Notes under the pieces: generated by a model | Told to the model about the DNA's origin: nothing | Database searches by the model: none | Seen by the model: only the letters and a program-made list of their open reading frames with translations | In this document: positions 2,487 through 52,695 of the stretch, piece after piece | Numbering within the stretch: position 1 is the first letter of the stretch | How the letters are laid out: the number at the start of each line of letters is the position of its first letter | Translations under genes and position numbers: made by a program | Source of the DNA: Gryganskiella cystojenkinii | Lineage: Eukaryota > Mortierellomycota > Mortierellomycetes > Mortierellales > Mortierellaceae | NCBI GenBank assembly: GCA_015852425.1 | Contig: JAAAIG010000019.1 | Coordinates: 51,359-115,358, forward strand | Reading direction: 5' to 3' | Length of the DNA: 64,000 nt

Positions 2487-5400
2487 AAAAAAGCAGAGAC
2501 AAGAACCAACCGAAAAATACAATCCATGAGCGTTAGTACAACCACAATCACACTCATGGAAGACCAGACGGACAGATTCGTCTCCAAACTAGCTCCCTAC
2601 TCGGATGACATTAAATCAAGGACTCGAAAATATATTTCCGTGCAAATTCTATTGGAAGGTCAATGCACTCAGATGAAACTTTTTGAAAGGATTGTTTGTT
2701 TTGTTTTATTTGCCATTGTTTGGGAGTGAACATCATGCAGGTCGATAAGGCATAGAACCATGCATGGATGCTATTTTTGTCATATGCCAGAGAAGAAACA
2801 AAGACAAACAAAAAAAAGGCGTGAAGAAATATTGAAGATCGATTTTCTTTGCTGAAGCGCACGAGCCTGAATTGCCTAATTCATAGTTTAGGACGTGGAT
2901 CATCTCTGTGTTAAAGGTGGGAAGTGACGTTCGTCAACAGAGAGAAGAGACGGCGCATCGTCCACATCAGGATGCTGCACATAGTATTTGAGTGAGTCGT
3001 TCTTTTGTTAATGACTTTCTGATATCGTGTGGATAGCTAATAAAAGGAGTTGGACCTGCAAGGTCCAAGAGTTTGTCAACTCTGTACTCCGTTGACAGTT
3101 TGGGACAACGGTATTTCATCGATATGAATCAAAAAGTCGCCGATGTAGCAGAAACCTTCTGAGAATGAGCGAGAATTGAGCTCTCAATTATTTTTTTTGT
3201 TAAATCGGCAAAAGCAGCCATGATAGAAGGACAAAAGAAGGGTGTGTTGGGTGGCTCTCAAAAATGTGCCTCTCTGTTTTCTACAGAGGGAGGGCGAACC
3301 GTCCCTTCTATCAAATGTATTGAGCACACGGCTCTTGTGGATTTTTTTTTTTTTTTTTGAGGCATCGAAATCGATCGTCCGACCATTGGATTTGGGGTTT
3401 GGAAAATGGAGCTGTTTTTGCCGCTCTTTCATGCACCCTTCTGAACCCGAGAAGGGCCGCAAGAACGGACTTTTCCCCTAAAAATAATCGTGTGCTCATT
3501 GCGAGTTCCCTTGGAAATCTCAAGGCAGGGTCGACATACTGACGAAATGTTGTGGATATGAATAGAAACAAAACAAAAAGAGCTGCACAGTTTGGATTCA
3601 GTCATGCACCTGAATGTACTTTTTTACTCCAAAAACAAGCATCGGAGACGAGTTCCAAGAGAAAGGGAATGAATGAGGGGTTAAGACAGGGAATGGCCAA
3701 AATACCGTTTATTTGGAAGTGCTCACTTGCCATTCTTTTTTAATTTCAGTGAGAAATGAACTGGAAAAACGAACTCTCTTTCTCAAAATTTTGACAGTGA
3801 GGAGAAAGGGCAGATCATGCCATGCCCTGAAAATGTCATCACCTTGCCTTTAGGAATGGCCTACTTTCCCGTAGTCTGCTCTAGTCTAGTCTCTTTGTCT
3901 TGGATGTGAAATTCCCCCTGGTTTCTTGGAGAACCCCATCCCACCCATGCGTCATTGCCTCTGTCCCACTGTGAGCAGCGGTACTTGGACCTTGATACCG
4001 ACAGAAAAATGGAAAACGCAAAGTTGCCACGACTACGCCCTCTCGCCGAGTTGCCTCCCCACCCCCGCTCCATGCTCCCACTCCACCTTGAATGTGAGAT
4101 ACATTACATTTCTATTGTTTGGATGGCAACCTATGCCCCATGGTTTGGATCGGTAGCTCGATTTTATAACAATCGGAAGTTAATAATAAGGAGGTGGATT
4201 ACCGTTACCGCGTTTTCCTCTCCCTTTCTCTCTCTCTTTGCTGGCTTAAAATGGATGGTCGGGGTCTGATGTTGTCCGATCCCATGGTTACCGTCGCACA
4301 TTGCCGCTTTTCTCGCAATCATTGTCGAAAATGGGAAGCCATACCCTCCGTCGTCCTGCATCGAATAAAGAGTGCTCAGAAATGCTCTCTTTGTTGATAT
4401 GATGCTTTTTTTGACAAACAGAGAAAAACAAAGTGCAAGTTCACAAACAAACGATAGCAATCCACCTAATCCACTATCCCGCCAATTCACATTTATTTGA
4501 TTTTTCATTTCACTCTTGGCCAGTTGTATTAAAAGTTGGGAACCTGAAGTAGGACAGGGAGTAGCGAGAAAGAGGGAACGAGAGAGGAGTCCCGGGCGGA
4601 AGAACACAAGAACGACGGATGTTTCGAAAGGCGCACAAAGGCATGCAAATGCATGCAGAGAAAAATAACAAAGACCGAAAGGGCACGGAACAGGATGGCG
4701 CAACGCTCTCTTCGTTTGCACCCTTCATTCTCAACGCCCGAGAGAAAAACATTTCTTTGCTCTTCATTCTTTCTTTCTCTCTTTCTTCTTTTCAGTTCTC
4801 TTCGTCTTTTTTCTCTTCTCTGATAATATCCCTCTTTTGTCACACCTCCACTCCTATTTATTTTCGCCATCTCGACCTCGTCCAACTTCACAAGCAATCT
4901 ACGTACGCACTGCAAACCCACATCCATTTGCAGCTCTCCCACCTCAAACCTCGACTGTTCTTGCCCACAAACAAAATTTGCTCTTTTCACCATAATATCT
5001 TTCATTTTCAAACACCTCCACCCTCCTCCTCCTTCCTTACTTTTCCAGTCCCAATCCAAACTCACCACCGCAGTTTCCCACTGTTAACCCTCCTCCGTCG
5101 AGGAATACGTTTTTCAAAATTCCGGCCTCACTCCATCTCCCGTCTGAAGTTCTTCTCAGGTACAGACCCAACAAACAAATTTCCGGATTCGGTTTAATTC
5201 TGCAGCAGTAAACTAAGGAATAGCACAAAAAAAAATGAGTTGGAACCATCATCCACAGTGTGGTGCAAGAGAGTAATTGCGCGGACGAAGGGATGGGAGG
5301 GCTGCGTCCCTTGTTTCTTGTTGGAGGGAGAACAAAAAGGAACGAGAACGAAAGAGTGGTAAACAGACCAAAAGTTTCTCTGCGTCTCTTTCTCGGGACT

Positions 5401-47919: not shown

Positions 47920-48294
47920 ATGGTTCACAACCTTGAACTCAACACACACACGTATTTCGATGTCAAGATTCAGCCCGAGGCAGCCGATCAGGTCCTAGCC
48001 TCGACCCGCGCCGCTTCTGTTACACAAAATGGATCTCTCGCAGGTGTCGAGTATATCGGTCATGTAGGTGAACTCACCAACCATCTCCTCTTCCGGACGC
48101 CAAAGCAACCGCATAATCACAGCAACAACGACCAGAAACTCCAAGGACCGGCGCCTGGGCCACACTCTCACCATGAAGAGGAGCAAGAAGATCAGAGAAA
48201 CAAGCAGATCGTGGATGCCATCTCGGCCATTCATGGGGTCCTCCAGGTGGATGTTCAGACCCTGCGGCAGAGGGCCAAGAGAGATGAGCTTTAA
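47920..48294 (+). CDS. Small hypothetical protein, His/Gln-rich centre
   Basis: Intronless, 124 residues, starting MVHNLELNTHTYFDVKIQPE in good context (GGCCATGG) after a CT-rich leader. The first 60 residues look folded (AADQVLAST, AGVEYIGHVGELTNHLLF). A His/Asn/Gln/Glu-rich linker and a C-terminal amphipathic helix (QIVDAISAIHGVLQVDVQTLRQRAK) follow. No family is recognised and no function is assigned. A poly-A run lies soon after the stop, and TATAATAAAT at about 48350 may direct polyadenylation. Confidence 0.72.
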   Translation: MVHNLELNTHTYFDVKIQPEAADQVLASTRAASVTQNGSLAGVEYIGHVGELTNHLLFRTPKQPHNHSNNDQKLQGPAPGPHSHHEEEQEDQRNKQIVDAISAIHGVLQVDVQTLRQRAKRDEL

Positions 48295-48610: not shown

Positions 48611-50880
48611 TTATTCTGTTCGCATGGACGTCAATACGTCGGTATGTCGGAGTCTGCCAACCACATTCAGAACAAAATCCATCGCTCCTGGGTCCGGTTG
48701 CGGATGTTTGTCAAGGTAGATGACGACCATGGAGACATGAGGATCCGCCCGCGCCACATAATAGGTACATCCAATCTTGCGGTCATAAAAATATTGTGTC
48801 CGGTATTGCTGGAGGATACTGACGCTCCCTTGCATAATCGAGATGATGTTGGGCCAGTGGTCGCGTGGCGGGTCCTAGTTCGAAATAAAAAAAAATGGAA
48901 GTTGTGGTCAGCGAGTACACTCAGATGTCACCAAGGATGAGATGATGCGGACGAATTTTTCGAGATTTCCAGTCACTTACAGGAGGATAGCTGTAAATAC
49001 ACGGGAACGAGTTGAGACCAGTTGGTGATTCGTAAGGTGCGTTAGCGGAGATAAATCCAGTAGGCGAGAACCGCACCGCGGACGAAATCTCGTACACGAA
49101 CGAAATGCTGTGTGCTCCCGCCTTTTTCCTGAATATCCGGATCCTAAGGTCAGTACAGTCAAAAGGCATAGTTAATACGGTTTCAAGGCGGACAGCAGTA
49201 AGAGCATCTCGAGCAACTCGAAGATGATCGTTCGACTTACAATTCATGGAGGTTCGGTTCCATGTTGGCCCACAGACTCCGTTCGTCTCCTCCCAACATC
49301 TGCTCCTTCTCCAGTAAAACATCCATAAAGTAGAGGGTCATCTTGATCTTCTCGCTTGCGATCCAACGCCCGAGCCAGAGCTGATGATTGGGCTGGAGGT
49401 TCACTTTGTTTGATTTGTTGGTTTTACTCTAACAAGTTCGTACAATGTAGATCAGTATGCGTGATGATTACAAACCTTTAGATGTAATCAAGAAACAACT
49501 CGCATACCTTATCCTCGCCAGTGGAGAATATGCTGTACCGCCAAGGTGTTTCCTCTGGTCGATGCATCGATTTCTAGCGCCAGATTGACAAAAAAAACAA
49601 AAAAAGGTTAATCAAACTGTACAGCGTGGGGGATTATCGTCTTCTTCGACAGTGCCAAGATAAAGTCCAGGGACTGGTTATTACCTCCGCATACTGCTGC
49701 TCGGTCGTGATGCGACGCCATTCTGAGAGAGAAGTTCCCGCCAAGTGAAGATTCGTGGCCGATTTCTGGATCTCGTATTCCGTCACGGCCTTGTCCATAA
49801 GCAGCCCATGAAGCAAGACCAAAATCTCGTTGTAGACGCCCATGCCGAGAACGGTTTGTTGAATCTCCTGCGTCTTTAACTCGTATAAATGAAGAGCATT
49901 CTCGACCTCGGGCAATATTTCCTGGACGTCAATCTCCACCGTCGATAACGACAACTTGCGGTAGCTAATGGTGATGGCGGTGAGAGAAACTTGGTCAGAA
50001 AAAGATAAACGCCTTTTCAAGACTGACGAAGCGTAATGCTGCATCAACAAAAAAAACATACATTCCGATCATTGACATCCTGAGCATACAAAGCTCTCTA
50101 AGAATGGTATAGAGAACGAGTTGATCCGCCACCATATCCTCCCGTCCTTGAAGATTGCTTTGGTTGTGCAACGTGTTGGTTGGAGACACGTTAGAGGAAT
50201 TAGAAGAGTCGCCTGATCGCGCGTTGCTGCTGTTGTTACTATTGTTGACGGGAGAGTCTCGAGCGAGCTGTTGCTGGATACTACCGACATGGGTCGCCTC
50301 GGACATGTTTAGGATCGGCGAGGTGTACCCCGAAGACCCTTGTCGGGTGGATCGCCTCTTGTTGTTCGTATCGACAGGCAATGTTGGCGATCCAATTGCA
50401 ACATCCTGATGAAGGGCAGACTCGCGCTCGATATCGTTTGCGATCTCGCTATAAAAGTGGTAGAGATGCTAACATGGATTCAAAAGGGAGACGATTCAGT
50501 AGCGTCAGGGTATATGTCGAAACCCAAGTTTCCTCTAAAACGTACATATAAAAAAAGACTCGAGTGCTACTTACATCCTCTCTTCGGAATATTTTTGGCT
50601 TGAGAAACTGCATTGAGGTATAGATACCCTCTGCTTGGGACACTCTTGAGCAAAAAAATCCCGCGGTTGGATGAACCTGTTTATTGTTCATCAAAAGAAA
50701 AGAGGTGTTGACGAGTGTTTTTTTCCCTGAGCTTTTTTTCTTTTCGCGTCTGCATAATGTCGTGAATGGCACATGGTGATTGGACAATACCTTGCTGAGG
50801 CGCATCATGTGTTTGTTGGCGCAGACATAGTCGAACGAGCCCAAGGCCTTGATGTACTCTGCACAGTCGTGAGAAAACAT
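48611..50880 (-). CDS. KICS2: KICS2-like protein (KICSTOR complex subunit 2 homologue)
   Basis: Eight exons on the minus strand (50880-50791, 50628-50575, 50468-50062, 49964-49685, 49573-49508, 49428-49241, 49143-48981, 48874-48611) give 503 residues, all in frame. Landmarks match the order of human KICS2 (C12orf66, about 445 residues) as I recall it: an N-terminal helix ending RLSK-GIYTSMQFLK, then FYSEIANDIE, QLVLYTILRELCMLRMSMIG, NLHLAGTSLSEW, NHQLWLGRW. The C-terminal lobe is most alike: HWPNIISIM, FYDRKIGCTYYVARADPH, MVVIYLD. In animals KICSTOR tethers GATOR1 to lysosomes for amino-acid control of TORC1. A Ser/Asn-rich insert (about 90 residues) sits in exon 3. The N-terminal start is the least certain part: the sequence near 50860 also resembles an acceptor, so an upstream exon is possible. 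Confidence 0.82.

Positions 50881-51168: not shown

Positions 51169-52695
<1,527 letters not shown>

Follow-up and report, generated by a model that had tools for sequence, protein, structure and literature searches.

The gene at positions 48611..50880 (minus strand) of a 64,000-nucleotide stretch of the genome of Gryganskiella cystojenkinii (Mortierellaceae; contig JAAAIG010000019.1; hereafter the window) raises the question of whether a Mortierellomycota fungus encodes KICS2 (C12orf66) and, if it does, whether the other subunits of the KICSTOR complex accompany it. Judged from its sequence, the spliced product of 519 residues is a true KICS2, and the genome that encodes it also has genes for SZT2, ITFG2 and KPTN. 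We consider it very likely that this is an ordinary fungal orthologue, inherited vertically, whose product belongs, most likely, to a four-subunit KICSTOR that tethers GATOR1 to the vacuole, which is the lysosome of fungi.

Family identity and fold

An hmmscan search of the spliced protein returned PF09404 (C12orf66-like, KICSTOR) as its only family (E=7.4e-40), scored 137.4 bits where the cut-off is 22, a resemblance well outside chance, and aligned residues 186-517 with profile positions 123-435 of 439. When the 519 residues were searched against the PDB, three distinct sequences were matched at E<=0.001, namely a mouse protein deposited as hypothetical (2gnx, E=3.2e-27) and two forms of KICSTOR subunit 2 (E=4.1e-27 for 25gf_D and 4.2e-27 for the other), and a profile built from 22 fungal proteins matches KICS2 at E=6.9e-48. 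A six-frame search of the assembly with PF09404 (35 Mb, 1050 contigs; three candidates scored) led to a single place, exon 8 of this gene (E=7.3e-14). The fungal protein is colinear with human KICS2 (25gf_D, 9van_D, 9o5a_F) over residues 188-516 and shares its HWPN and FYD motifs. It differs in that a Ser/Asn-rich insert, about 90 residues long and modelled with low confidence, separates the first helices from the remainder.

The fold was judged from a predicted model of an orthologue 78% identical to our protein. KICS2 chains rank first in the structure comparison with this model, which shows a helical bundle and then a C-terminal roadblock-like lobe, an order of parts shared with human KICS2; residues 89-159 of the model have a predicted local distance difference test (pLDDT) value below 50. 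Matches to BRO1-domain and Rag/roadblock structures were rejected as kin and read as the shared folds of the two lobes. The initial annotation had named the gene KICS2-like and proposed a profile search and a comparison of predicted structures as checks, and both bear the name out.

The exon chain can be compared with a public orthologue from Entomortierella parvispora (P0001, 'KICSTOR complex protein C12orf66'). The gene reads as one open frame that starts with the ATG at 50880 and closes with a stop codon whose last base is 48611, and its seven introns of 79-114 nt are all GT-AG:

48611..50880, minus strand: KICS2 (C12orf66-like) gene, 8-exon coding span, 519 residues (spliced translation, PF09404, PDB 25gf_D)
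50791..50880, minus strand: exon 1, residues 1-30, N-terminal helices (translation; matches the E. parvispora orthologue)
50575..50676, minus strand: exon 2, residues 31-64 (translation and alignment to the E. parvispora orthologue)
50062..50468, minus strand: exon 3, carrying the poorly conserved Ser/Asn-rich insert at about residues 83-172
49685..49964, minus strand: exon 4, helical bundle (translation, alignment, orthologue model)
49508..49573, minus strand: exon 5 (translation and alignment to the E. parvispora orthologue)
49241..49428, minus strand: exon 6, helical bundle (translation, alignment, orthologue model)
48981..49143, minus strand: exon 7, start of the C-terminal roadblock-like lobe (translation, orthologue model)
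48611..48874, minus strand: exon 8, 87 residues and the stop, with HWPNIISIM and FYDRKIGCTYYVARADPH; C-terminal lobe

The initial annotation was right in its coordinates, strand and count of eight exons, whereas its length of 503 residues falls 16 short of the spliced product. This chain has support in P0001, which aligns colinearly along the entire query with 78% identity and shows neither insertion nor deletion at the seven junctions; it differs in its length (509 residues against 519) and slightly in its insert. Among nine aligned Mortierellaceae proteins, a small indel lies by the residue-30 junction in two and by the residue-315 junction in one, the other five junctions having none. The insert itself holds 18 Ser and 13 Asn among its 90 residues, and its mean identity across the 18 rows of a wider alignment is 0.33.

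That the locus could be a decayed copy without function gains something from the absence of an identical protein among the 37 KICS2 homologues found, which means that the public annotation of G. cystojenkinii may lack or misread the gene. The unbroken frame with its seven canonical introns and a C-terminal lobe with a mean identity of 0.75 over the same 18 rows make such decay very improbable.

Several observations nevertheless weigh against the assignment and the exon chain. The N-terminal 180 or so residues lie outside the sequence matches, since the Pfam match begins at residue 186 and that of the fungal profile at position 182; the colinear N-terminal stretch in the PDB search scores -1.1 bits, and only the fold comparison covers it. 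The whole-chain superposition has a root-mean-square deviation of 17.4 A and the model a predicted template modelling score (pTM) of 0.55, so that the placing of one lobe relative to the other is uncertain. In the 18-row alignment, one row of which is a glomeromycete, indels within 6 columns of junctions 1 to 7 occur in 6, 3, 1, 0, 8, 2 and 0 rows, respectively, which indicates that the junctions after residues 30 and 315 are at variable spots.

The homologues themselves speak to the origin of the gene. Mortierellaceae names are borne by 33 of the 37 (best identity 78%), one is unnamed, and three are glomeromycete proteins, in part by a presumed family placement. In favour of an animal gene contaminating the assembly, or of one recently transferred from an animal, is that the first description of KICSTOR was from vertebrates, as cited in Barua, Plecha and Muszewska 2025 (PMC11836306). 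Such an origin has next to no probability, however, in view of the fungal company just listed, an identity to human KICS2 of 18-25% in structural alignments with the fungal model, and the position of the gene, which lies within a contig of 115 kb and is paired head to head with a gene for a Rab-type GTPase. Among the same homologues, the Gamsiella multidivaricata record (P0016) fuses KICS2 (PF09404) with PF02466, which we take to be Tim17-type, and this is likely a gene-model fusion of neighbours.

KICSTOR partners in the same genome

The initial annotation had also proposed a search of the same genome for SZT2, ITFG2 and KPTN, and all three were found; a PDB search with each gave its namesake and no other protein at E<=0.001. 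SZT2 was located on contig C318 (E=1.3e-10) with the human N-terminus as the query. Three long frames spread across 11.2 kb there and total 3693 residues unspliced. An 841-residue frame part matches only SZT2 in the PDB (9o5d_E, E=3.8e-12) and falls at residues 226-441 of the 3432-residue chain 9v0j_D (E=5.9e-11), and a downstream frame of 1667 residues likewise matches only SZT2 (25ge_C, E=7.4e-27) and falls at 2781-3127 of 9v0j_D (E=2.3e-25). Because a search of the assembly with this C-terminal frame finds only itself, SZT2 looks single-copy. The other two partners lie as follows:

C806:43614-46911, minus strand: KPTN gene, identical to BGZ83_010377 of Gryganskiella cystojenkinii
C505:9001-13500, minus strand: ITFG2 gene, with three PF15907 stretches on C505

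The initial KPTN match was weak (E=3.4e-4), and kaptin then stood as the sole PDB protein at E=1.1e-17 with a rough exon join and at 6.1e-20 with the exact public protein. A fish kaptin is found among the database relatives of the fungal KPTN. For ITFG2, a rough exon join matches only ITFG2 in the PDB (E=6.3e-41).

These proteins have features of their own. The fungal KPTN has 936 residues compared with 436 in PDB kaptin; its long C-terminal tail is charged and repetitive, and low-complexity sequence is inserted between its propeller stretches. The records of the Mortierellaceae forms list no Pfam domain. In the fungal ITFG2, a large insert of some 240 residues, rich in Ser, His and Pro, interrupts the propeller region.

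The genome also encodes components with which KICSTOR would work. GATOR1 subunits were called by one-way Pfam matches above the cut-off (Iml1/DEPDC5, E=1.1e-89; NPRL2, 3.6e-40; NPRL3, 2.9e-54), and two Rag-type loci and one sestrin were found by Pfam as well.

Beyond this genome, at least six Mortierellaceae have matches for KICS2, KPTN and ITFG2 alike, the three subunits searched there, as seen by comparing the lists by eye: Linnemannia exigua, L. elongata, Mortierella alpina, Podila verticillata, Dissophora ornata and Actinomortierella ambigua. The KPTN and ITFG2 relatives were scored among the 7994 and 7990 candidates, respectively, that shared most words with the query. In Lobosporangium transversale we found KICS2 (P0014) and a partial KPTN (P0070), and its ITFG2 is not among the 19 ITFG2 matches; as this word- and length-limited list also misses the ITFG2 of G. 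cystojenkinii, whose gene is plainly present, this is no proof of absence in L. transversale.

Proposed role and the published record

By gene content, all four KICSTOR subunits are present in one Mortierellomycota genome. If the fungal proteins act as their human homologues do, KICS2, SZT2 and the ITFG2-KPTN pair would together form a scaffold, the scaffold would recruit GATOR1 to the vacuole, and GATOR1 there would act on the Rag GTPases, switching off TORC1 when amino acids run out. The initial annotation had allowed that KICS2 might work without the other subunits. Retention of KICS2 for some other role, the remaining subunits being missing or unconnected with it, could appeal to the complex in this fungus being a prediction from genes, and to the three-protein KICSTOR stated for Mortierellomycota, and modelled on Lobosporangium, in PMC11836306. 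The three partners, each matching its namesake only, are on the other hand all in this genome, and four subunits together with GATOR1, Rags and a sestrin speak against KICS2 acting alone, which we regard as unlikely.

Fungal KICS2 is itself not new. KICSTOR in early-diverging fungi was published in 2025, when Barua, Plecha and Muszewska described it as conserved across Mucoro-, Mortierello- and Glomeromycota, against a statement of 2017, as they cite it, that only vertebrates conserve it (PMC11836306), and KICS2 and KPTN of E. parvispora already bear KICSTOR names in public records; the novelty that the initial annotation implied does not hold. Its suggestion that early fungi had KICSTOR and that it disappeared afterwards does agree with that survey. 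Among the literature matches listed there is no other title on fungal KICSTOR and no functional study of it, most subscription-journal papers being outside the search.

Our results share with that survey the finding of KICSTOR homologues in Mortierellomycota and differ from it in number, a discrepancy that counts against our reading: the survey gives Mortierellomycota three KICSTOR proteins and credits every member of Mucoromycota, in which it includes Mortierellomycota, with more than two copies of SZT2 (PMC11836306), while this genome has four subunits and what looks like one SZT2. The complete four-subunit set in one Mortierellomycota genome is a modest addition. We think it probable that Mortierellomycota have retained all four KICSTOR subunits as a single set, tethering GATOR1 to the vacuole as in animals, which would correct the three-protein view. 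If so, the full complex would be no younger than the last ancestor shared by fungi and animals, and a fungus that grows in culture could provide a simple KICSTOR model. At the level of gene models, the data confirm that a Mortierellomycota fungus has kept the KICSTOR arm of TORC1 control, and four subunits in one genome make Mortierellomycota candidates for the study of KICSTOR in a microbe. In humans, epilepsy and disorders of brain growth have been linked to KICSTOR subunits.

Surroundings of the gene

An Rfam scan of the window gave no match. Just past the 3' end of KICS2, a 124-residue open frame (47920-48294, plus strand) has no Pfam match above its cut-off. On the other side lies the Rab-type small GTPase gene (51169-52695, plus strand; PF00071, E=2.3e-59), presumably Rab6/Ryh1-like. 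The start codons of the two head-to-head genes are 288 bp apart, and they possibly share a promoter.
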